In this document: one piece after another, positions 34,753 through 51,177 of the stretch
Position numbering within the stretch: the first letter of the stretch is position 1
Layout of the letters: each line of letters opens with the position of its first letter
Translations under genes and position numbers: made by a program
The notes under the pieces: model-generated
Databases searched by the model: none
What the model was told of the DNA's origin: nothing
What the model saw: only the letters and a program-made list of their open reading frames with translations
NCBI GenBank assembly: GCA_030018455.1
Contig: JASEFU010000002.1
Coordinates: forward strand, 62,001-126,000
Direction: 5' to 3'
Length of the DNA stretch: 64,000 nucleotides
Source: Dehalococcoidia bacterium
GTDB lineage: Bacteria; Chloroflexota; Dehalococcoidia; DSTF01; JALHUB01

Positions 34753-34858
34753 GTCGCCCGCGGAGAAGGAACGCTGAGACCCGCGTCCTGTTGCCCATCG
34801 GCGGCGCGATTCTGAAGGAATGCGCGATCATCAGCGGCAGCGAGTCCGGAGGGAATCC

Positions 34859-36040
34859 ATGAATCTGCGAGACACACCGGAGGAGGCGGCCTGGCGACAG
34901 GAAGTGCGGGAGTTCATCGAAAAAGAGCTTCCTCAGCAGTTTAAGGATAATCCGCTTGAAGACGAGAGCGCCGCTGCGCTCTGGAATGACCCCGACATGC
35001 AGGCCTGGCGTCGGAAGCTCGTGGAGCGAGGGTGGATCGCCCCTTCCTGGCCGAAAGAGTACGGGGGCGCCGGCCTCTCCCTCATGCAGCAGTTCATCAT
35101 GGGCGAGGAGATGGCGGAAGCGCGCGCCCCTTCCGTGGGAGGCGCTGGCATATCAATGGTCGGGCCAAGCCTGATAGTGCACGGCACGGAGCAGCAGAAG
35201 AAAGACTTCCTTCCCAAGATCCTCTCGGGCGAGATCCTGCTCTGTCAGGGGTTCAGCGAGCCGGAAGCCGGCTCCGACCTCGCGTCACTCCGCACCAGGG
35301 CAGTGCGGGACGGCGACGACTTCGTGATCAACGGCCAGAAGATATGGACGAGCGTCGCTCATCACGCCAACTGGATGTTTCTCCTCGCGCGCACCGACCC
35401 GGACGTGCCGAAACACAAGGGGATTACCTACTTCCTCCTCGAAATGAAGACCCCGGGAATCGACGTCCGGCCGCTGCCCGACATCACCGGCGACGTTCTC
35501 TTTAACGAGGTCTTCTTCGACAACGTGCGCGTCCCGGCCAAGAACATTGTGGGGGAGGAAAACCGCGGCTGGTACATCGCCGCGACGACGCTGGACTTCG
35601 AGCGCGCGTCCGCCATCGGCGCCGTCGTGCAGCTAAGGCAGACGGTGGAGCGCCTTATACGCCTGGCGAAGCAAGGCGGCAAGGGGAGCGCGTTGAGCCG
35701 TAACCCCCTGCTCCGACTCGAGCTCGCCGACCGGATGATCGAGGTGCAGGTGGTGCGGATGATGGCCTATCAGATCGTGTCCATGCTGGGGCGGGGCCTC
35801 ATCCCCAACTACCAGGCATCGATGCTGAAGACATTCGCCACGGAGACGGCGCAGCGCGTTGCCAGGACGGGCATGAGCGTGCTCGGCATGCGCGCGAACC
35901 TGTACGGGGATGACGCGCCGGAGAAGGGGATCATCCCTCGGAGCTATCTCAGCACGCTCGGCCTGACAATTGCCGCAGGGACGTCGGAGATACAGCGCAA
36001 CATCATCGCCCAGAGAGGGCTGGGCCTGCCGCGGCCGTAG
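34859..36040 (+). CDS. Acyl-CoA dehydrogenase
   Basis: A 393-residue acyl-CoA dehydrogenase. FAD-binding segments are CQGFSEPEAGSDLASLRT, FVINGQKIWTS and the C-terminal GTSEIQRNIIAQRGLGLPR. The family position of the catalytic Glu cannot be fixed by eye. It oxidises an acyl-CoA and hands electrons to ETF, which is encoded 27 kb away at 7282-9224. GGAGGGAATCC precedes the ATG. Its chain-length preference is unknown. Confidence 0.9.
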   Translation: MNLRDTPEEAAWRQEVREFIEKELPQQFKDNPLEDESAAALWNDPDMQAWRRKLVERGWIAPSWPKEYGGAGLSLMQQFIMGEEMAEARAPSVGGAGISMVGPSLIVHGTEQQKKDFLPKILSGEILLCQGFSEPEAGSDLASLRTRAVRDGDDFVINGQKIWTSVAHHANWMFLLARTDPDVPKHKGITYFLLEMKTPGIDVRPLPDITGDVLFNEVFFDNVRVPAKNIVGEENRGWYIAATTLDFERASAIGAVVQLRQTVERLIRLAKQGGKGSALSRNPLLRLELADRMIEVQVVRMMAYQIVSMLGRGLIPNYQASMLKTFATETAQRVARTGMSVLGMRANLYGDDAPEKGIIPRSYLSTLGLTIAAGTSEIQRNIIAQRGLGLPRP

Positions 36041-37660: not shown

Positions 37661-40051
37661 ATGACATCAACTCCTCAGGCGCCGTCAATCTGGTCGCCTT
37701 CCCCGGCCCTGTCGCCGCGCGTCCGGCGCCTTCGCGACGAGTTCTTCGCCTTCGCGGAGCGCGAGCACTTCCGCAATGAGGTCCGGCCCTACGGCAGTGG
37801 CGTCCCCTGGGACGCGGTATGGTCACCCTATCATTGGGGAGTCGTGCCGGAGATGTACCCGCTGTTCGACGCTATCGGCGATTGCCTGCTCGCCGCCGCC
37901 GAGTCCGTCCCGCTCCCCGACGGCTTCTGGAAGGAGCCGCTTGTCGTGCGCCGCGCCCTCTTCTTCCGCGAGGTTGTGGAGCGGCATCTGCCCGTGAAAA
38001 TCCTGGACGGCGAGCTGATCGTCGGTTCCTACTTCAACACAGCGCTTTCCAAGACGCACACGAAGCGTGAGTCGCGCCAGTGGCGAAAGGGCGTCAAGCG
38101 CTGGCTGCGGGAGGCGCGGCGGCTGAACGATGCCGGCGTGGGGAACTGCGGCGCGGTCCCCGGACACCTCGTGCCAGACTACCCGAAGGTGCTCCGCCTG
38201 GGCTTCAGGGGCATTGCCGCCGGACTGGAGGAGATGCGCGGACGCGAACCACCGGGCGAAAGGCGCGACCTCCTCCGCGCCCTGATAGCCTGCTGCGAGG
38301 CGGCTATCGCCTTCGCCGCCCGCTATGCCGACGAGGCGCAGCGGCTTGCCCGCGAGGAAGGCGATCCGGCGCGTCGCGCGGAACTAGAGGAGATAGCGCG
38401 CATCTGCCGTCAGGTCCCCGCTGGGCCGGCGACGACCTTCCACGAGGCGCTGCAATCGCTCTGGTTTGCCCACATGCTCGTGATGGCCGCCGAGTCATAC
38501 CCCGGCCCCGGCCTCTCACCCGGCCGCATAGACCAGTACCTCTTCCCCTACTACCGCGCCGATATCGACGCCGGCCGGCTCGACAGGCAGCAGGCCCGGG
38601 AGTTGCTCCGGTGCTTCTGGATCAAGCACAACTACGCCTACGACTATCAGGGCCGCATCGGCAACCAGGGGATCAACTCCGGGTTCGGCCAGCTCGTGAC
38701 CCTCGGCGGCACGAACGCCGACGGCAGCGACGCCTCGAACGACCTCACGTGGCTGATGCTGGACGTCATCGAAGAGATGAACCTGCTGGAGCCGAAGCCC
38801 AACATCCGACTGCACGCGAACACGCCGGAGCCGTTGCTGCGCCGCGTCGCCGAGATGACGGCCCGCGCCCAGGGCTCGCCCTTCCTGCTGAACTTCGACG
38901 AGGCGGCCATCCGCGGCCTCGCCTGGCAGGGCCTTCCCGCCGACCAGCTCTGGGACTACGCCCCCGTCGGCTGCCTAGAGAATACCCTCCAGGGCTGCGA
39001 CCGCTCGGGCACCGTCGACGTTAACCTCAACCTTGCGAAAGCCGTGGAACTCGCCCTCAACGACGGCAGGGACATGGCGACGGGCGCGCAGATCGGGCCG
39101 CGCACCGGCGACCCGCGGTCGTTCGCCGATTTCGGCGCCTTCTTTGACGCCTTCAAGCGACAACTCAAGTCGCTTCTCGGTCAGCTCGTCGCCTGCAACG
39201 ACCAGGCCGACGCCCTTCGCGCCCGCTTCGAGCCTACGCCTTACCTGAGCGTGCTCGTCGACGGCTGCGCCGAGAGCGGTCGCGACGTCACTTCGGGCGG
39301 CGCAAGACACAACTACATCACCGTCGAGGGCGTCGCCCTGGCAACCACGGTCGATTCCCTTCTCGCGGTCAAGCAGGTCGTCTTCGAGGACAGGCGCGCC
39401 ACGATGGAAGAGCTGCTGGCCGCCATCCGCGCCAATTTCGACGGATATGAGGCGTTGCGTCAGACGCTCTCCAACCGCGCGCCGAAATACGGCACCGACG
39501 ACCCCGATGCCGACGGCCTGGCCCGCGAGGTCTCGCGCTTCTGGACAGAGGAGGCCTTCCGCCACGTCTCGCCCGCGACGGGTAAACGCTACCGGGGCGG
39601 CTATCTCTCTTGGAACTACTGGATTGGTTATGCGCCGTTGACGGCTGCCACTCCAGACGGACGCCGGCGCGGGACGTACCTCTCGAACGGGGTCTGCCCC
39701 GTGGTCGGGGCCGACCGCGAGGGACTCACGGCGGTCATCCGCTCCGTGGGGCAGCTGGGGCTGGAGACGGCGCCCAACGGGGCGTCGCACACCCTGACGG
39801 TCAGCCCGTCACTCCTCCGCGATGAAGAACATGTCGACAAGTTCGTCGCCCTCCTTCGCGCCTATTGTCGCGTGGGTGGCACTGCCCTCCAGATCAACGT
39901 CATCGATCCCGAGACGCTGCGAAACGCTCAGGCCGATCCCGAGACCTATCGCAACCTGCTGGTGCGCGTGACGGGCTACAATGCGTACTTCGTGACGTTG
40001 GGACGGGAGATACAAGACGAGATCATCGCCCGCGAGGCAGGAAGACTGTGA
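37661..40051 (+). CDS. Glycyl radical enzyme (PFL-like, function unknown)
   Basis: A 796-residue glycyl radical enzyme. The C-terminal glycine loop RVTGYNAYFVTLGREIQDE carries the radical at about G772, and the active-site loop is APVGCLEN with C438 and E440. The Cys-x-Glu arrangement is found in dehydratases, decarboxylases and C-S or C-N lyases of the family, not in pyruvate formate-lyase itself (Cys-Cys). The substrate cannot be named. The activase at 26696-27682 is a likely partner, 10 kb away. A GGGAG site precedes the ATG, and a TACAAT box lies at 37618-37623. The stop overlaps the next gene as GTGA, so the flavoprotein is coupled to it. Confidence 0.9.
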   Translation: MTSTPQAPSIWSPSPALSPRVRRLRDEFFAFAEREHFRNEVRPYGSGVPWDAVWSPYHWGVVPEMYPLFDAIGDCLLAAAESVPLPDGFWKEPLVVRRALFFREVVERHLPVKILDGELIVGSYFNTALSKTHTKRESRQWRKGVKRWLREARRLNDAGVGNCGAVPGHLVPDYPKVLRLGFRGIAAGLEEMRGREPPGERRDLLRALIACCEAAIAFAARYADEAQRLAREEGDPARRAELEEIARICRQVPAGPATTFHEALQSLWFAHMLVMAAESYPGPGLSPGRIDQYLFPYYRADIDAGRLDRQQARELLRCFWIKHNYAYDYQGRIGNQGINSGFGQLVTLGGTNADGSDASNDLTWLMLDVIEEMNLLEPKPNIRLHANTPEPLLRRVAEMTARAQGSPFLLNFDEAAIRGLAWQGLPADQLWDYAPVGCLENTLQGCDRSGTVDVNLNLAKAVELALNDGRDMATGAQIGPRTGDPRSFADFGAFFDAFKRQLKSLLGQLVACNDQADALRARFEPTPYLSVLVDGCAESGRDVTSGGARHNYITVEGVALATTVDSLLAVKQVVFEDRRATMEELLAAIRANFDGYEALRQTLSNRAPKYGTDDPDADGLAREVSRFWTEEAFRHVSPATGKRYRGGYLSWNYWIGYAPLTAATPDGRRRGTYLSNGVCPVVGADREGLTAVIRSVGQLGLETAPNGASHTLTVSPSLLRDEEHVDKFVALLRAYCRVGGTALQINVIDPETLRNAQADPETYRNLLVRVTGYNAYFVTLGREIQDEIIAREAGRL

Positions 40052-40878
40052 TCGCCGCTGCTCCGCCGCAAACGAGTCTCACTTCCGAGGCGGTTCGCGC
40101 CCTGTCCGGCCTTCGGACGCCTAAGTTCCTCGCCACTCGCAACGAGGAGGGCGTCGCCAACGTCGTCCCCGTCCTCTCGCTCGACGCCTTCGACGACAGG
40201 ACGCTGGTCTTCGGTGAAATGATGGTCTGGAAGACGAAGCGCAACCTGGAAGCCGATGCCCGCGTCTCCGTCCTCGTTCTCGCGCCCGACCTCCGCTGCT
40301 GGACGATCAGGGGCCGCTTTGTCGGCTTCGAGCGCAGCGGCCCCCGTTTCGACCGTGTCGCCGCGTCGCCGGACGCCCGCTACAATCCCTACGGCAGCTA
40401 CCGGAGCGCAGGCGTAATCGAGGTGCTGGAGACCGCAGGCGCCTCCCGGGTTTCGCAGCGGGAACTCCTGCTGGGGACGCTTCGAGGCCGTGTGCTGGCG
40501 CGCCGCTTGGCCGCCGGCGGCCGGCCGGTCATGCCCGTCCAGGTGAAGGAAAAGTTCGACAGGCTGAAAGCGGTGAAGGCCCTCGCCTGCGTGGACCCGG
40601 ACGGCGGGCCTCATTGCGTGCCCGCCATGCCGGCAGTCGCAGCGGGCAGGGGCCGGCTCGTCTTGGGCGGCGCCGCCGTCGATGCCGTCGCCGCTCTCCC
40701 CGGCGGCGCGCCGCTGGCGGCTGCTGTGCTCAGCCTGGAGCCGGTCGCGTACCAGGTGAAAGGGCGCTTCGCCGGCCTGCGGCGGAGCCTGGGACAGTCT
40801 TTTGCGGTCCTCGATGTTCTTGAAGCCTACAGCGCGTCGCCGCCGCTGCCGGGCCATCTCTTGCCTATGAAGCCTTGA
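40048..40878 (+). CDS. Pyridoxamine 5'-phosphate oxidase-like split-barrel protein
   Basis: A 276-residue protein with an N-terminal FMN-binding split barrel (LRTPKFLATRNEEGVANVVP, LVFGEMMVWKTKRNLEADA) and a second, shorter half (KALACVDPDGGPHCVPAMPA) that looks like a repeat. The family includes PNP oxidase, heme oxygenases and F420-dependent reductases, and function is not fixed by sequence. The GTG at 40048 overlaps the glycyl radical enzyme stop. A role in protecting or repairing the oxygen-sensitive enzyme is possible but only inferred. Confidence 0.8.
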   Translation: MIAAAPPQTSLTSEAVRALSGLRTPKFLATRNEEGVANVVPVLSLDAFDDRTLVFGEMMVWKTKRNLEADARVSVLVLAPDLRCWTIRGRFVGFERSGPRFDRVAASPDARYNPYGSYRSAGVIEVLETAGASRVSQRELLLGTLRGRVLARRLAAGGRPVMPVQVKEKFDRLKAVKALACVDPDGGPHCVPAMPAVAAGRGRLVLGGAAVDAVAALPGGAPLAAAVLSLEPVAYQVKGRFAGLRRSLGQSFAVLDVLEAYSASPPLPGHLLPMKP

Positions 40879-40987
40879 GATCATCCCGGGCGCTCCGTCC
40901 TCGATCTTCGCGCTTTACCTGCGCTACCATCCTCTCATCTGGCCGGCCGTGAGGGCCGGACGCAAGGTCGAGCGCAGGAGGAGCTTC

Positions 40988-42007
40988 ATGAACCAGAATC
41001 TTTCCAGACGAGAAGTGCTGCGCGCGTCCGCGGTCGCCGTCGCCGCGGGTGGGCTGGCGCTGGCAGCGTGTAATGACGGCGGCCGGAAGTCGCCTGGTTC
41101 GAACTCCGCGATTCCGGCAACGGGCGCAACGCCGACGCCATCGCCGGATGCCGGCCCTGCCGTGCACCCCCTTATCCGCGATGGGAAGGTGATGGTGGTG
41201 CCCGGCGTTTATGACGTCCTCTCGGCGAAGATTGCCGAGCGCACTGGCTTTCCGGTCGTGGTGGTGACGGGCTACGGGGCGTCGGCGAGCCACCTGGGCG
41301 AGCCCGACTTCGGCCTACTCACCCAGACGGAGATGCGGGACGTGGTGCGCCGGATCACGTCTGCCGTCGGAATCGCGGTGGTGGTCGACGGCGATACCGG
41401 CTACGGCGGCCCTCTCAACGTGCAGCGGCTCGTGCGTGAGCTGATCCGGATGGGCGCGAGGGGGGTCATCCTCGAGGACCAGCGCTGGCCCAAGCGGTGC
41501 GGGCATATGCGCGGCAAAGAGGTCGTCGATGCGGAGGAGCACGCCGCCAAGATCCGGGCGGCGCGGGACGCGATAGGCGACGCCCCGTTCTTGCTGACGG
41601 CGCGCACCGATGCCCTGGAGACGCACGGCCTCGACGAAGCGATCAGCAGGGCCCGCCGGTACAAGGAAGCCGGCGCCAACATACTCTTCGTCGAGGGGCC
41701 GCGGTCCCGTGAGGAGCTGCGACGCATCGGCCGGGAGCTGCCCCCGCCGCTCGCGGTCAATCTCATCGAGGGCGGCCGCACTCCTCTCTGCTCCCTGGAG
41801 GAGCTTGCCGAGATGGGGTTCTTCAGCATCGGTTTTGTCCTTTCCGGTCTTTACGCCGCTGCCCGCGCGCTCGAACGCACGTATGCGGAGATCCGGAAGG
41901 AGGGGACGACGATCGGCTTGGGCGACAGCATGTTCTCGTTCGACGAGTTCAACTCGCTCATCGGCGCCGAAACCAGGTACGCCGAGGACGAGCGCTATCG
42001 CCCGTGA
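40988..42007 (+). CDS. Predicted Tat-exported lipoprotein of the isocitrate lyase/PEP mutase superfamily
   Basis: A 339-residue protein. Its N-terminus has a twin-arginine motif (SRREVLRAS, R7/R8), a hydrophobic stretch and a lipobox ending LALAAC with C28. A Thr/Pro/Ser linker follows. The rest is an isocitrate lyase/PEP mutase barrel with the Mg site DGDTGYG (134-140) and the catalytic loop WPKRCGHM (K169-H173, C171). Members of this superfamily cleave or rearrange 2-methylisocitrate, oxaloacetate or phosphonates in the cytoplasm, so export is unusual. GAGGAG precedes the ATG. The substrate is unknown. Confidence 0.8.
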   Translation: MNQNLSRREVLRASAVAVAAGGLALAACNDGGRKSPGSNSAIPATGATPTPSPDAGPAVHPLIRDGKVMVVPGVYDVLSAKIAERTGFPVVVVTGYGASASHLGEPDFGLLTQTEMRDVVRRITSAVGIAVVVDGDTGYGGPLNVQRLVRELIRMGARGVILEDQRWPKRCGHMRGKEVVDAEEHAAKIRAARDAIGDAPFLLTARTDALETHGLDEAISRARRYKEAGANILFVEGPRSREELRRIGRELPPPLAVNLIEGGRTPLCSLEELAEMGFFSIGFVLSGLYAAARALERTYAEIRKEGTTIGLGDSMFSFDEFNSLIGAETRYAEDERYRP

Positions 42008-44724: not shown

Positions 44725-45204
44725 ATGAGCGCTGATGCCGCACAAGAATTCGTTGACGAGCTCCTGCGTGCTGATCGAGACGAAATCGTCCGTGGTTTTT
44801 GCCGCGGTTTCGCCAATCTGGACGCGGCTTCCGGCACCGCTCTTCTGTCGGAGATGGCAGGGGCTTGCCGCAACTGCTTCCTCCGCCGCGCCGATTTCCC
44901 CGATGGCCTCACCCTGGAAGGCCTGATCGAACGCCTGGAGACTGCCGGGCCGCACCGCATCGAAATCCGGCGCGTGGAGAAAGAGATCATCTGGAGCGAG
45001 CTCCTGGAGGGCCGCTGCGCTTGCCCCCTCGTCCGGCTCGGCACCGTACCCCTCTGTCCCAGACTTTGCGACTGTGCCGTCGAGTGGCTGCGTGGCCTGA
45101 TCGAGAAGTACCACGGGGGAAATGTCACCGTGGAGCTCGTGGAGTCGGTGGCGGGCGGTTCCCAATCGTGCGTCTTTCGCGTCAAGCTCGGAGCGGCCCC
45201 CTAG
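44725..45204 (+). CDS. Cys-rich small protein, possibly a V4R/ATC-hydrolase-like sensor
   Basis: A 159-residue protein that I can only partly place. Cys occur in ACRNCFLRR and in a compact cluster CACPLVRLGTVPLCPRLCDC, followed by VTVELVESVAGGSQSCVFR, a pattern like the C-terminal metal-binding part of V4R-type or related small sensors. The start at 44725 follows AAGGAG. The end shares a CTAG with the convergent decarboxylase gene, so both stops use the same four bases. Role unknown; a metal or redox ligand is plausible from the Cys cluster. Confidence 0.65.
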   Translation: MSADAAQEFVDELLRADRDEIVRGFCRGFANLDAASGTALLSEMAGACRNCFLRRADFPDGLTLEGLIERLETAGPHRIEIRRVEKEIIWSELLEGRCACPLVRLGTVPLCPRLCDCAVEWLRGLIEKYHGGNVTVELVESVAGGSQSCVFRVKLGAAP

Positions 45205-46199
45205 ACAAAATACCTCGTCCGCGCCTTCTTGTACTCCGTTCTGCTGAAGAGGACGGCGAAGTCCGGCGCGCGTGCCTCCTCTGATATCTGTGATGCGATG
45301 GCGCGGCACTCCTCGTCGTCTCGGGCGTGGATCATGGCGAAGAGATTGTACGGCCAGCCCGCGCCTGTAGCGCGCTCGTAGCAGTGACTTACCTGGGGGC
45401 GACGGCACGCCGCCGCCGCGATCTCGTCGACGCGGTCCGGCGCCGCTTTCCAGACGGCCATCCCGTTTCCCCGGTAACCTGCGCGCCGGTGGTAAAGAAC
45501 GGCGGCAAATCGGCGCAGCCATCCCCGCCGCGTCGCCTCTCGCATCCACGTCAAGACCTCCTCCTGGCTGACGGCGAGAGCGTCCGCAGCGGCCGCGAAA
45601 GGCTCGGCGACGATGTCGCCGTTGCGCTGGAGGGCGCGGATGAATGCCTTGTCGCGGGCGTTCGGGCCGGAACCCTCGCGATTCAGGGTCGACGTCTCGT
45701 CGCCGGCTTCTTCAAGGAGCCCGTCATCTTCGATGCCCAGGCGGACGCCGATCTTGAACGTTCGCAGCGCGGGGAGGCACACGTGGGGGAAGCCGCCTGC
45801 CGCCCGCGCCAGACATCGCGCCGCGGTTTCGACGTCGTTTCCTGGGGGCACCGCCAGTGTGAACCAGAGGTTCCAGCGGTGCTCCCGCAGGTAGTTGTGG
45901 CTCACGCCCGGATGAGCGTTTATCACCGCCGCCGCTTCGTCGATGCGCTCGACGGGAACGGCCATGGCGACGAGCGTGCTGCGATAGCCCAGGGCGCGCG
46001 AATCGAAGATGGGGCCGATGTCGCGTATAAGGGAGCTGTCGCCCCCGTCTTTGAGGCGGCGGAGGCGGGCCAGCGCCTCGTTCTCAGAGAGGCCGGTCTG
46101 CGCGGCGATGGCGGCGTAGGGGCGCGTCACCAGCGGCAGTCCCCGCTGCAGCAGGACGAGAAGTCGACGGTCGGTTGCGTCGAGAGCGAGAGCCGTCAC
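45201..46199 (-). CDS. Fused siroheme decarboxylase (AhbA-AhbB / NirDL-like)
   Basis: A 332-residue protein made of two Lrp/AsnC-like siroheme decarboxylase halves, about 1-160 and 175-332. Each has an N-terminal helix-turn-helix-like part (DATDRRLLVLLQRGLPLV; ARDKAFIRALQRNGDIV) and a ligand-binding part (HNYLREHRWNLWFTL; SHCYERATGAGWPYNLFAM). The family removes the C12 and C18 acetate carboxyls of siroheme to give didecarboxysiroheme, the entry to haem (Ahb) or haem d1 synthesis. The ahbC and ahbD genes upstream favour haem. The GTG start follows AGGAG that overlaps the ahbC stop region. It is usually two genes; here they are fused. Confidence 0.88.
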   Translation of the reverse strand: MTALALDATDRRLLVLLQRGLPLVTRPYAAIAAQTGLSENEALARLRRLKDGGDSSLIRDIGPIFDSRALGYRSTLVAMAVPVERIDEAAAVINAHPGVSHNYLREHRWNLWFTLAVPPGNDVETAARCLARAAGGFPHVCLPALRTFKIGVRLGIEDDGLLEEAGDETSTLNREGSGPNARDKAFIRALQRNGDIVAEPFAAAADALAVSQEEVLTWMREATRRGWLRRFAAVLYHRRAGYRGNGMAVWKAAPDRVDEIAAAACRRPQVSHCYERATGAGWPYNLFAMIHARDDEECRAIASQISEEARAPDFAVLFSRTEYKKARTRYFV

Positions 46200-46210
46200 G
46201 CGCGTCGCTC

Positions 46211-47464
46211 CTAACTCGGGTGGCCGCCGTTCTGCACCGGCACCGGCCAGCGGGCCGCCTCTTCGGCCTCCGGCGTTCCCGGCGTGATGCCGATCTCCTC
46301 GTCGGTGAGGTAGCAGCCGGGATCGGGCGCCAGCAGGTTCTTGAAGTACCGCTCCGCCCGCACCCGGAGGTTGCCGTTGCAGATATCAAGCCAGCGGCAG
46401 ACGCGGCAGCGCCCTTTCAGATAGCGCTTGCGGTCCTTCAGTATCGTCAGAACGGGGTCGCCGCGGCCGGACCAGATGTCGCTGAAGGAACGCTCGCGCA
46501 CCTGTCCCAGGCTGTAGTGCCACGAGAATTGGTCGGCGTGCACGTGGCCCGCCGGGTCGACGCAGCTTATGGCGATGCCGGACTGGTTGCCGCCGTTCCA
46601 CCGCAGCATCTTATAGACGTCGCCGGCCCTCTCCGGCTGCTCTCCGGCGAGCCGCATGTAGAGGTAGGCGTTGTCGGCGTGGTTATCGACGGTGAGGATG
46701 TCCTTCTCGATCCCGCGCCGGTGCAAGCGGTCAGAGCGTTCGAAGACCTGGTCGACCACGGCCCGCGTCTGCTGCGGCTCGAGGGAGAAGCGCTGCATGC
46801 GCCGGCCCCGTCCCGAGAAGGCGAGGTGGTAGACGCACAGGCGGGGGAAGTCTTCCTCTTCCAGCAGGTCGAGCAGCGGCGGCAGGTCGTCGATGTTCAT
46901 GGCGTGGACGGTGAAGCGCAGCCCCACCCGGACGCCGGCGTCGCGGCAGTAGCGGGCGCCGCGCAGCGCCTCGTCGAAGGCGCCCTTCTTGCCGCGGATC
47001 CTATCGTTGGTCGCGGCCATGCCGTCGAGGCTCACCCCCACGTAGGAGAAGCCGGCGCGGCGGATGTCGGCAGCGGTATCGGGCGTGATCAGCGTCCCGT
47101 TCGTCGAAAGAACGCAGCGGATGCCCTTCGCGACCGCGTGCGCGACGAGGGGGAAGAGGTCGTCTCGCGTCAGCGGCTCGCCTCCCGAGAAGAGGATTGT
47201 GGGCACGCCGAACGCCGCCAGGTCATCGATGAGGCGCAGCCCTTCAGCGGCCGTCAACTCGTCGGGCAGGGACTTGCCGCCGGCGTCGGCGTAGCAGTGA
47301 ACGCAACGCAGGTTGCAGCGGCGGGTGACGTTCCAGACGACGACCGGCTTCTTGTCGACCGAGAAGTGAAGCATGTGCGCGGGCACCCGCGACGTCCGAC
47401 GCCCGTAACGGAGGGCATCGCCGGGGGTAACGGTACCGTTCAGCAGTCGAGAGACACTCAGCAT
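46211..47464 (-). CDS. ahbC: AhbC: 12,18-didecarboxysiroheme deacetylase (radical SAM)
   Basis: A 417-residue radical SAM/SPASM protein with C50/C54/C57 (CNLRCVHC), FSGGEPL, SLDG and a C-terminal Cys set (CRVCRWLDICNGN). Its opening (MLSVSRLLNGT, then GDALRY) is the AhbC/NirJ signature. AhbC removes the two acetate side chains to give Fe-coproporphyrin III, whereas NirJ acts in haem d1 synthesis; AhbD next door supports AhbC. The ATG lies 1 base after the ahbD stop with GGAAGGAG upstream, so the genes are coupled. Confidence 0.85.
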   Translation of the reverse strand: MLSVSRLLNGTVTPGDALRYGRRTSRVPAHMLHFSVDKKPVVVWNVTRRCNLRCVHCYADAGGKSLPDELTAAEGLRLIDDLAAFGVPTILFSGGEPLTRDDLFPLVAHAVAKGIRCVLSTNGTLITPDTAADIRRAGFSYVGVSLDGMAATNDRIRGKKGAFDEALRGARYCRDAGVRVGLRFTVHAMNIDDLPPLLDLLEEEDFPRLCVYHLAFSGRGRRMQRFSLEPQQTRAVVDQVFERSDRLHRRGIEKDILTVDNHADNAYLYMRLAGEQPERAGDVYKMLRWNGGNQSGIAISCVDPAGHVHADQFSWHYSLGQVRERSFSDIWSGRGDPVLTILKDRKRYLKGRCRVCRWLDICNGNLRVRAERYFKNLLAPDPGCYLTDEEIGITPGTPEAEEAARWPVPVQNGGHPS

Positions 47465-47465
47465 C

Positions 47466-48575
47466 TCACGCTCCTTCCGTCACGGCACGGCGCATCGCCA
47501 GTGGCTCGTAGACGCAGAACGGCTCCTCCGCTAGGAAGTCGCCGCTCATTCCCAGGGCGCGGGCGCGGCAGCCGCCGCAAACGCGACGGAACTCGCAGAC
47601 GCCGCACTTGCCGCCGACGGCGTCCGGGTCGCGCAGCGTGTGGAACACCGGTGATCGCTGCCAGATATCCCGCAGCGGCTGCTCGCGGACGCTTCCCACG
47701 CGGAGTGGCAGGTAGCCGCAGGGGAATACGTCGCCCCGGTGCGACACGAAGCAGACGCCGCTGCCGGCCAGACATCCCTTTCTTGCGCTGCCAAAGTTGC
47801 CCAGATGGCCGGCGGCGCCCGCGTCGGCCACTTGCGGCCGCTCATACTCGGGCGCGGGCTCGCGTTGGCGGGCGACGCGCAGGTAGTGGGGGGCGCAGGT
47901 AGCTTTCAGCTCCAGAGGGCCTTCCTGGTCTCGCTCCCACACCCATTCGAGCACGCGCTCGTACTCCTGCGGACTGATCATCTGCTCGGCGGCGATATCG
48001 ACGCCGCAGCCGACAGGCACGAGCAGGAAGACGTGCAGCGCATCGGCCCCCAGCGAAAGGGCCAGCGCGAAGATGTCCGGCAATTCCTCAACGTTGTGGC
48101 GCGCCACAGTGGTGTTGATCTGGACGCTGATGCCCTCCGCCCGCAGGCAGTCGATGCCGTTGAGAGCGGCGGCGTAGGAGCCGGGAAGGCCGCGGAAGGA
48201 GTCGTGCGTGCGCGCCGTCGCCCCGTCCAGGCTAACGGCCACCCTCCGGACGGCGGCGGCAAGGACGCGCCGCGCCGTTGGCCTGTCGATGAGGGTGGCG
48301 TTGGTTGCCAGCGCCGTCCGGAGGCCCCTGTCGGAGGCATAGCGTGCGAGCGCGAAGATATCGGGCCGCAGCAGGGGCTCGCCGCCGGAAAGCACGAAGA
48401 CCGGGCTGTCGAAGGCCGCGACCTGGTCGATGAGCGCCCGCGACTCGGCGGCCGTCAGGTCTTCCGGCACAAGTCTGTCAGCGACCTCGATGCGACGGCA
48501 ATGGACGCAGCGCAGGTTGCAGCCGGCAGTGGCCTCCCAGAAGATAAGGCGCGGCGCTGACAGGCTTCTTATCAT
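47466..48575 (-). CDS. ahbD: AhbD: Fe-coproporphyrin III decarboxylating haem synthase (radical SAM)
   Basis: A 369-residue radical SAM/SPASM protein with the opening PRLIFWEATAGCNLRCVHC (C19/C23/C26), LSGGEPLLRPD, and the C-terminal cluster motif CGVCEFRRVCGGCRAR. In the Ahb pathway it converts two propionates of Fe-coproporphyrin III to vinyl groups, giving haem b. I chose the ATG at 48575; the frame extends to 48635 but that would overlap the NHL gene. The start has no clear ribosome site, so coupling to the NHL gene 13 bases upstream is likely. It could also be a paralogous peptide-modifying enzyme, but context argues for AhbD. Confidence 0.83.
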   Translation of the reverse strand: MIRSLSAPRLIFWEATAGCNLRCVHCRRIEVADRLVPEDLTAAESRALIDQVAAFDSPVFVLSGGEPLLRPDIFALARYASDRGLRTALATNATLIDRPTARRVLAAAVRRVAVSLDGATARTHDSFRGLPGSYAAALNGIDCLRAEGISVQINTTVARHNVEELPDIFALALSLGADALHVFLLVPVGCGVDIAAEQMISPQEYERVLEWVWERDQEGPLELKATCAPHYLRVARQREPAPEYERPQVADAGAAGHLGNFGSARKGCLAGSGVCFVSHRGDVFPCGYLPLRVGSVREQPLRDIWQRSPVFHTLRDPDAVGGKCGVCEFRRVCGGCRARALGMSGDFLAEEPFCVYEPLAMRRAVTEGA

Positions 48576-48588
48576 CGGCTTGGCGTGC

Positions 48589-49662
48589 TCAGGCAGGTAG
48601 ACGGAACGCGAAGAGTCCGGTGAAACGGTCCACAACGTAAAGGGTGCCGTCGACGACTTTCAGGCCGTGCGGCGCCTGGAAGAGCGATGCCGACTCCTTG
48701 TTGTCGGGGTCTTCTCTGCCGATGAAGCCGGCGTACGTGCCGTCGGCCTCGAACGCCTCCACCGCCACCTGAAGGGTGTCGGAGACGAGCATGCGCCCGC
48801 TGTCGTCCACGGCCACGGCCTTAGGGCGCGAGAACGTCCCTTCGGTGTCGCCGGCCTCGCCCAGACTGAACAGGAACTCGCCGGAAGGGGAGTACTTCTT
48901 GATCTTGTAGTTGAGCATATCGACGACGTAGAGGTTGTCTTCGGCGTCGAGCGCGAGACCCCCCGGCATGTTGAAGCTGTAGTCGCCGGAGTCGCGCGTG
49001 CCGGAGCCGAGGACCGAGACGAGCTTGCCTTCGCCGTCGAGGCGCAGCACGCGGTGGTTGTCGGGGTCGCTCAAGTAGATGTCGCCGCCGGACGTCACGG
49101 CGATCCCGATGGGACGCAGCGGCTTCTCGGCCGCCGGGACCTGCGGGGCAATGACCTGCTGGACAGCGCCCGCGGCGTCGAGGACGATGACGTTGCCGGC
49201 GCGGGAGTTGGCGACGTACAAGCGGCCATCGCGGGCGGTGATCGCCATCGGAGTTTGCAGGGCGAGGCGTTCGTCGCTGCTGGAGTCAAGCATCCGTAGG
49301 ACGTTGCCGTCTTTGTCGATCTCGATGATGCGGTTGTTGTTGGTATCGAGGACGTAGACGCGGCCGTCGACGACGGCGACATCGGCGGGCATGGCGGCAG
49401 AATCGGGCGTGGGCTTGCCGCTTGCGTCGGCGTGGGTCAGGGGAACATGCCACATTAGTTCCGCGGGAAAGACGAGGCCGCTCACCTTGTCCAGGGGATG
49501 GACCTCGCTGGAAGGGATCGGGGGCTGACTTTCGGACCCCTGTCGCAGCACAACACAGGTGCCCAGGCCGACGGCCGCGACGGCTGCCACGAGAAGACCG
49601 ACGACGGCGCTGCGCCGCAAGCCCCTGTTCGTCCGCTCGCTTTGCGATTCTGATTCCACCAA
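48589..49662 (-). CDS. NHL-repeat beta-propeller protein with N-terminal membrane anchor
   Basis: A 357-residue protein with one N-terminal helix (AVVGLLVAAVAAVGLGTCV) and six or so NHL blades (VYVLDTNNNRIIEID, IYLSDPDNHRVLRLD, LYVVDMLNYKIKKYS, LYVVDRFTGL). The propeller would face outside the membrane. Such proteins bind partners or ligands, and one beside multihaem cytochromes may be part of a surface redox complex (inference). The start is a TTG with an adjacent GTG; GAGGAG is 9-12 bases upstream. A palindrome lies about 100 bases upstream. It heads the ahb operon. Confidence 0.82.
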   Translation of the reverse strand: MVESESQSERTNRGLRRSAVVGLLVAAVAAVGLGTCVVLRQGSESQPPIPSSEVHPLDKVSGLVFPAELMWHVPLTHADASGKPTPDSAAMPADVAVVDGRVYVLDTNNNRIIEIDKDGNVLRMLDSSSDERLALQTPMAITARDGRLYVANSRAGNVIVLDAAGAVQQVIAPQVPAAEKPLRPIGIAVTSGGDIYLSDPDNHRVLRLDGEGKLVSVLGSGTRDSGDYSFNMPGGLALDAEDNLYVVDMLNYKIKKYSPSGEFLFSLGEAGDTEGTFSRPKAVAVDDSGRMLVSDTLQVAVEAFEADGTYAGFIGREDPDNKESASLFQAPHGLKVVDGTLYVVDRFTGLFAFRLPA

Positions 49663-49926: not shown

Positions 49927-51177
49927 TCAATCGTGGCAGTTCAGGCAGAGGGCATCGTACGTCATCGACGTGATGCCGCTGTCGACAGCCCCGTGCACGG
50001 CGTGGCAGGTCAGACATTTCATGTGGGCCTCGCCGGCGGGGACTACGGCCGTGCCTGTCTCGTCCCACAGACGCGTTCCACTGAAGTCGCCCGTGTAGGG
50101 GTCCCACGCGCGGTCGGCGGGGGCGTCGGTCATCCCCATCCAGTGGCTTATCGAGCCGACGCCGTGGCAGGCGAGGCAGAGGTCGGCGTTCTGCGATGCG
50201 GGAGGGAGCCTTGACGGATCGGCGAACTCCCACGTATCGGCGTGCGGGTCGTGACAGCGGTCACAGTCCTCCCCCTCGACGCCGGGCTCGACGTCGTGGT
50301 TCCGGTAGGCGGGGTCGGCGATGAATGCGCCGGTAGCAGTGACTGAGCCGTCGTGGCAACTGAAGCAGAGCGATTGCAGGCCGGACATGCCGGTCTTGGG
50401 CGCGCGGGCCCACAGATAGCTCCCCTGGGCGTTGTGAGGCGTGTGGCACTGCTTGCAGGTGGGTGTATCCGGCGAGCCGAGGTCGTGGGCGGTGCCGTAG
50501 ATATCGCTCTTGCCTGCCGGCGCGCCCGGCTGGAATGTGGGAACGGGCGTAGGCGCGGGCGCTGTAGCCGTGGGCGCGGGAGTGGGCGTGTCCGGTGCGG
50601 GCGTGGGCGTGTCCGGTTGGGGGAGAGGAGTCGGCGTATCCGGCTCAGGCGTGGGCGTCGGGGCGCCCGGTTCAGTCGTGGGCGTGGGCGTATCCGGTTG
50701 GGGTGTGGGCGTCGGCGTATCCGGCTCGGACGTAGCTGTCGGCGTGGGCCCGGTCGTGGGCGCAGCAGGCACGACGATGTCCTCGAAGGCGGCGCCGCCC
50801 TTCGTGCAACTGGGAGGCGCCGGCGTGCTGTTGCAGGAGTCGGCGTCGTCCACCCAGTAGACGCGGTAGGTGGCCCCGTCCCTGGGAAGAGTGAACGAAC
50901 CGGGTCCGTAGCCGTTCGCCACGTTGGAGCCGGCGGGACTGAAGACGGCCCAACCTTCACGGGCGTCGTAGGGGGTGGAGCCCGAGACGTCGTAGGTTGC
51001 GGTAGTCCCCGTCTCGCCCGCTGCGGTCACCGAGATCGAGGTTGCGGGCATGTCCGCCGGGTGACAGGAGACGCAGCCGCTCGACTGGCCGGGGTTAGCT
51101 TCGACCCACGTCGAACGCACAATCACCAGAGTGCCTGCCACCGCCGGCAGGGCCAGCAACAGGGGAAGCCACTTCAT
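49927..51177 (-). CDS. Seven-haem cytochrome c with Pro-Thr linker
   Basis: A 416-residue exported protein: signal helix (LPLLLALPAVAGTLVIV), then one CxxCH at C35-H39. Residues 40-139 are a beta-rich non-haem domain. A Pro/Thr-rich linker occupies 140-214. The C-terminal 200 residues carry six CxxCH (CKQCH, CFSCH, CDRCH, CLACH, CLTCH, CLNCH) and align with the two neighbouring cytochromes (shared DIYGTAHDLGSPD, NAQGSYLWAR, LCFSCHDGS). It is expected outside the membrane and fits an electron-transfer conduit; partner and acceptor are unknown. The ATG has no clear ribosome site and probably depends on transcription through the stress-protein gene 60 bases upstream. Confidence 0.9.
   Translation of the reverse strand: MKWLPLLLALPAVAGTLVIVRSTWVEANPGQSSGCVSCHPADMPATSISVTAAGETGTTATYDVSGSTPYDAREGWAVFSPAGSNVANGYGPGSFTLPRDGATYRVYWVDDADSCNSTPAPPSCTKGGAAFEDIVVPAAPTTGPTPTATSEPDTPTPTPQPDTPTPTTEPGAPTPTPEPDTPTPLPQPDTPTPAPDTPTPAPTATAPAPTPVPTFQPGAPAGKSDIYGTAHDLGSPDTPTCKQCHTPHNAQGSYLWARAPKTGMSGLQSLCFSCHDGSVTATGAFIADPAYRNHDVEPGVEGEDCDRCHDPHADTWEFADPSRLPPASQNADLCLACHGVGSISHWMGMTDAPADRAWDPYTGDFSGTRLWDETGTAVVPAGEAHMKCLTCHAVHGAVDSGITSMTYDALCLNCHD
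50536..50760. repeat. Tandem repeat encoding Pro-Asp-Thr-Pro-Thr linker
   Basis: Imperfect 24-30 base repeats encode units like EPDTPTPTP and QPDTPTP between the non-haem and six-haem parts of the cytochrome. The repeated DNA is within the gene, and copy number could vary between strains. Confidence 0.75.

Follow-up and report, generated by a model that had tools for sequence, protein, structure and literature searches.

A Tat-lipoprotein signal on a predicted C-C lyase of the PEP mutase/isocitrate lyase superfamily in a Dehalococcoidia bacterium

The lyase gene and its surroundings

The window, i.e. the whole stretch of 64,000 nucleotides analysed here, contains an open reading frame that starts with ATG and encodes a protein of 339 amino acids, in which a twin-arginine signal and a lipobox precede a domain of the PEP mutase/isocitrate lyase superfamily. 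The gene, its parts and its upstream neighbours are listed below.

34820-36040, + strand: acyl-CoA dehydrogenase, upstream of the lyase
37661..40051, + strand: glycyl radical enzyme of uncharacterised type (GCLENTLQG, RVTGYNAYF), upstream of the lyase
40052..40878, + strand: PNPOx_N (pyridoxamine-phosphate-oxidase-like) protein, start uncertain, between glycyl radical enzyme and lyase
40976..40981, + strand: Shine-Dalgarno sequence AGGAGG, 6 nt 5' of the signal-bearing ATG
40988-42007, + strand: lyase open reading frame
40988..41068, + strand: Tat signal peptide MNQNLSRREVLRASAVAVAAGGLALAA, residues 1-27 (TIGR01409, PF10518, resampling)
41060..41071, + strand: lipobox LAAC with Cys28 (41069-41071), predicted to be lipidated (sequence; Lgt in the same genome)
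41072..41161, + strand: linker NDGGRKSPGSNSAIPATGATPTPSPDAGPA, residues 29-58, low-complexity and predicted disordered (pLDDT <50 for residues 11-55)
41162..42004, + strand: PEP mutase/isocitrate lyase-superfamily domain, residues 59-339 (profile, structure matches, AlphaFold)
41387..41407, + strand: DGDTGYG, residues 134-140, metal-site loop (D134 and D136 invariant among 15 aligned relatives)
41492..41506, + strand: KRCGH, residues 169-173, gating loop with catalytic Cys171 (invariant among the 15 relatives and the same in methylisocitrate lyase 3eoo)
41837..41839, + strand: Val284 (alignments)

The position of AGGAGG, 6 nt ahead of the ATG, makes it plausible that translation begins at the signal-bearing start; nothing resembling a Shine-Dalgarno sequence was seen in front of GTG 41162, the only obvious internal alternative start. 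Neither a promoter nor a terminator was found around the gene. The GC content at third codon positions is lower in the first 58 codons (0.71 vs 0.87), a drop that was considered as a mark of recent fusion and rejected as uninformative, since ordinary genes of the window show the same.

Residues 1-28 (MNQNLSRREVLRASAVAVAAGGLALAAC) comprise the twin-arginine motif SRREVLR (residues 6-12), a hydrophobic stretch (approximately residues 13-24) and the lipobox ending in Cys28, so that the twin-arginine signal and lipobox named in the original prediction were recovered ahead of the lyase domain. The signal passed the TIGR01409 model (19.2 bits, cut-off 16.7) and fell slightly below the cut-off of the Pfam model TAT_signal, PF10518 (20.1 bits, cut-off 22.7), and a comparable in-frame combination of Tat motif and lipobox arose by chance in one of 300,000 trials when the DNA upstream of the domain was resampled (first-order). 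Signal, lipobox and linker, the last rich in Pro, Thr, Ser and Gly and absent from every homologue examined, are joined to an intact lyase domain exactly where its native N-terminus lies. Genes for both TatC (C1:45167-45796, E 4.8e-64) and Lgt (C3:243231-243944, E 1.7e-47) are present in the genome, in keeping with a Tat-lipoprotein signal in a lyase that is otherwise of cytoplasmic type. A search of the rest of the genome for the source of the 5' segment detected no second copy, the best other match being 29 bp long.

Among the neighbours, the glycyl radical enzyme came nowhere near the curated cut-off of any characterised subtype, and no activating enzyme was recognised beside it, while the PNPOx-like protein gave a weak match, below cut-off, to the F420-dependent PPOX class. 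Downstream of the lyase a two-component system is encoded on the opposite strand. Elsewhere in the window, positions 45201-48635 (- strand) carry, ahead of two radical SAM genes, a gene for a duplicated protein of the siroheme-decarboxylase type (NirDL/AhbAB-like), an arrangement resembling that of heme d1 or alternative heme synthesis, and 49927-51177 (- strand) encodes what looks like a multihaem cytochrome, a secreted protein that is rich in CXXCH and contains a long TPTPQPDTPTPT repeat. In another genome (G235), the gene directly 5' of a signal-less lyase (L221:1081-2274) appeared by eye to be NAD-dependent formate dehydrogenase-like.

Catalytic domain and specificity

The profile PF13714 matched residues 62-302 with 174.5 bits (cut-off 31.5; 3.6e-51), and the protein is the only lyase of PEP_mutase type in its genome, where the gene of the second match reads as panB. 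The AlphaFold model is confident (mostly >=90) from residue 61 onwards and below 50 for residues 1-6 and 11-55; the modelled fold begins at about residue 57, and the N-terminal extension is unstructured except for the signal helix. As had been predicted, the active site is intact: DGDTGYG and KRCGH are both present, and D107, D134, D136, E163, K169-H173, R206 and N258 are invariant across the 15 relatives and aligned with 3eoo, their metal-site and catalytic roles presumably being those known from PrpB. At least 95% conservation was observed in 35 columns of an alignment of 120 homologues, and the lyase deviates at one of these, with Asn instead of Asp at the non-catalytic position 231.

Judged by its sequence and predicted fold, the protein is of the C-C lyase type and belongs to an uncharacterised clade, its nearest known relative being petal death protein, the 2-alkylmalate/oxaloacetate lyase of carnation (PDB 1zlp), which was the best match both by sequence (E 5e-90) and by fold (TM 0.91-0.92, depending on target; 54% by structural alignment). 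The next structures were those of oxaloacetate acetylhydrolase, 2,3-dimethylmalate lyase and methylisocitrate lyases. At position 284, which we take to be one that governs specificity, the lyase and the close homologues shown in the alignments possess Val; the corresponding residue of petal death protein and oxaloacetate acetylhydrolase is Ser, and dimethylmalate lyase and 4iqd have Pro. We take this to mean that the specificity of the lyase is not identical to that of any characterised enzyme, and its exact substrate may differ from that of every characterised member of the family. A substrate of the 2-alkylmalate type is suggested by the similarity to petal death protein, from which this one specificity residue differs.

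Distribution of the signal and parallel cases

Among approximately 138 homologous loci from GTDB contigs and Chloroflexota genomes, none displayed a Tat motif with lipobox in a plausible position upstream of the domain, nor did any of 20 further homologues with matches reaching residues 1-58 (about 158 in total). Within the clade of 57-82% identity the signal was found in none of the 18 members with visible upstream sequence; two members, L034 and L101, were cut by contig ends and left out of this reading. Where starts are clear in this clade, they fall a few residues from residue 59 of the lyase (MSNDDVHPLI, MPTENVHPLI, MNVDAHPLI). Searches of the class (393 genomes) and of the phylum (400 genomes) listed only one match that spanned the signal with good identity, the window gene itself, and the lyase gene is absent from G001, the one other genome of the family. 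As far as sequences can tell, the signal is thus private to the window's genome among those examined.

Several candidates for a second signal were rejected. A distant homologue (G682) that aligned from residue 1 possesses SRRRVL, but neither a hydrophobic stretch nor a lipobox; pattern matches in L067 and L145 sit far upstream in long frames; a hydrophobic stretch upstream of L043 is most likely untranslated, because a nearer ATG agrees with the starts of the other homologues; and an alignment of L074 reaching into residue 28 crosses a stop.

In a quick tree the lyase grouped with the proteins of a sister genome (G162) and of G288 inside a signal-less clade supported at 99*, on an end branch of 0.13, which is ordinary and gives no sign of decay. 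With a signal-bearing protein nested in this way, parsimony favours a single gain of the signal in the lineage. The original prediction had regarded absence of the signal from close homologues as evidence against it; that absence was indeed found, but a signal that is intact, in frame and preceded by a ribosome site, set against orthologues devoid of it, points to a recent lineage-specific gain rather than to a false signal.

The lyase is not the only such case in its genome, where a TIGR01409 search revealed 19 Tat-like signals, some of them on solute-binding proteins. Tat-lipoprotein signals were also detected on the following enzymes and proteins.

G000:C2:224229-228084: phosphotriesterase-family protein (L170) and adjacent metallo-beta-lactamase/alkyl-sulfatase-dimerisation protein (L166), with a tandem metallo-beta-lactamase paralogue (L002) without signal
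G000:C2:211262-211327: Tat and lipobox signal of a DUF362 protein (L169)

Both enzyme genes are adjacent in G001 too. There, the metallo-beta-lactamase homologue (67-68%) has its own Tat motif and lipobox, and the phosphotriesterase homologue (L176, G001:C296) presents a TGA in the twin-arginine site, with the hydrophobic region, lipobox and enzyme frame intact. Phosphotriesterase homologues of 57-63% in the order begin at the catalytic domain, and the metallo-beta-lactamase homologues at order level, like the tandem paralogue, are without signal. In these sequences the signals on the two enzymes are confined to this bacterial family, one of them being broken in G001; metal enzymes of the family thus carry putative Tat-lipoprotein signals that their relatives lack, at least one being conserved between genera. 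These parallel enzymes raise the confidence that the signal of the lyase is real and used.

Predicted export, its alternatives and known systems

The explanation preferred here, to which we assign a probability of roughly 0.6, is that a cytoplasmic C-C lyase of the 2-alkylmalate type became a Tat-exported lipoprotein in this lineage by gaining a signal. The enzyme would fold and load Mg2+ in the cytoplasm, be exported in the folded state by Tat, become lipidated at Cys28 and be held at the outer surface of the membrane by a tether of 30 residues. Anchored in this manner, it would act on 2-alkylmalate-type 2-hydroxy-dicarboxylates, splitting them into a carboxylate and a 2-oxo acid; D134, D136 and E163 would lie at the metal site, Cys171 would serve as general acid/base, and the products could then be taken up. 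No transporter or pathway for these products was identified, which counts against this explanation.

Evidence of another kind comes from G162, whose lyase is 80% identical and has no signal. A glycyl radical enzyme orthologue (73% identity) lies about 2.1 kb upstream of it on the same strand, separated from it by an acyl-CoA dehydrogenase and a Fur-family gene. An operon conserved across the whole lyase clade was not found, the glycyl radical enzyme being common only to G162 among members with readable flanks. Glycyl radical enzymes are of an intracellular, oxygen-sensitive type, and the conserved synteny argues for a cytoplasmic pathway; it suggests that the lyase originally worked in one together with the glycyl radical enzyme, and weighs more than any other observation against a purely extracytoplasmic role. 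The lyase could accordingly still be at work there, with its extension poorly used or bypassed by internal initiation near codon 59 (GTG 41162), a reading that also agrees with the cytoplasmic type of all homologues. The strong Shine-Dalgarno sequence is found at the upstream ATG and not at this GTG, and the signal is too complete to be readily ascribed to chance (about 1 in 300,000), so that we regard continued cytoplasmic function as unlikely.

Less probable again is a protein that is exported and anchored, but serves in binding or scavenging, or has changed its chemistry. It could appeal to the clade-specific Val284, unlike the aligned characterised relatives, and to the several Tat lipoproteins of the genome that are solute-binding proteins; yet the catalytic and metal residues are kept, the branch length is normal, and Val284, being common to the signal-less close relatives, is not a consequence of export. 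A chimaera of assembly or binning, in which a lipoprotein 5' end was joined to a lyase gene, is very improbable: the fusion occurs in one genome only, an assembly of 26 contigs, but the two parts are joined in frame, precisely where the domain natively starts, the 5' segment has no other copy in the genome, and the glycyl radical enzyme links the locus by synteny to that of G162. As to the kind of bond cleaved, the original prediction had allowed for C-C or C-P; the nearest relatives uphold the former, and a surface-exported PEP mutase or phosphonopyruvate hydrolase, though of the same superfamily (PF13714), is hardly credible given scores far under the cut-offs of TIGR02320 (PEP mutase, 100.3 bits, cut-off 319.55) and TIGR02321 (phosphonopyruvate hydrolase, 90.3 bits, cut-off 374.4) and a KRCGH loop and best structural matches that belong to C-C lyases.

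The isocitrate lyase/PEP mutase superfamily is one of central carbon metabolism. A surface-anchored member, if the export proposed here holds true, would mean cleavage of C-C bonds in organic acids before uptake; it would be a known enzyme type relocated, and not new chemistry. The parallel cases make gain of a signal testable as a route to extracellular catabolism in scavenging Chloroflexota. More speculatively, and with considerable doubt on our part, the family may repeatedly have moved cytoplasmic metal enzymes (lyase, phosphotriesterase-family and metallo-beta-lactamase-fold proteins) to the outside by gaining Tat-lipoprotein signals, thereby building a surface set of enzymes that cleave organic acids and esters, among them an isocitrate lyase-superfamily member facing outwards.

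In the literature searched, which did not cover most subscription journals, no exported members of the PEP mutase/isocitrate lyase superfamily were found. Gain or loss of whole signal peptides among otherwise orthologous proteins has been described (PMC5952966), in a study which differs in scope from the present case, as it dealt with the Sec signals of Enterobacterales and left Tat groups out, whereas the signal of the lyase is of the Tat type.

Of the characterised enzymes, petal death protein shares DGDTG, WPK(R/K)CGHMRGK and IEGG(R/K)TPL with the lyase and differs in lacking a Tat-lipoprotein signal and in the Ser that takes the place of Val284. PrpB (2-methylisocitrate lyase; 3eoo, 1mum) resembles it in fold, metal loop, KRCGH and ARTDA, but is cytoplasmic and without the WPK and IEGG motifs; the lyase missed the equivalog cut-off of the corresponding model TIGR02317 (238.7 vs 354.4 bits), as it did that for carboxyvinyl-carboxyphosphonate phosphorylmutase, the PEP mutase and phosphonopyruvate hydrolase models scoring lowest of the four. 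Fold and KRCGH loop are likewise common to 2,3-dimethylmalate lyase (3fa3) and oxaloacetate acetylhydrolase (3lye/3m0j), which have no signal and possess Pro and Ser, respectively, at the position of Val284. With regard to the proposed localisation, the organophosphate hydrolase of Brevundimonas diminuta is a Tat-exported lipoprotein, a TIM-barrel metal enzyme that is exported folded and lipid-anchored; it belongs to a different enzyme family and is a hydrolase, not a lyase.
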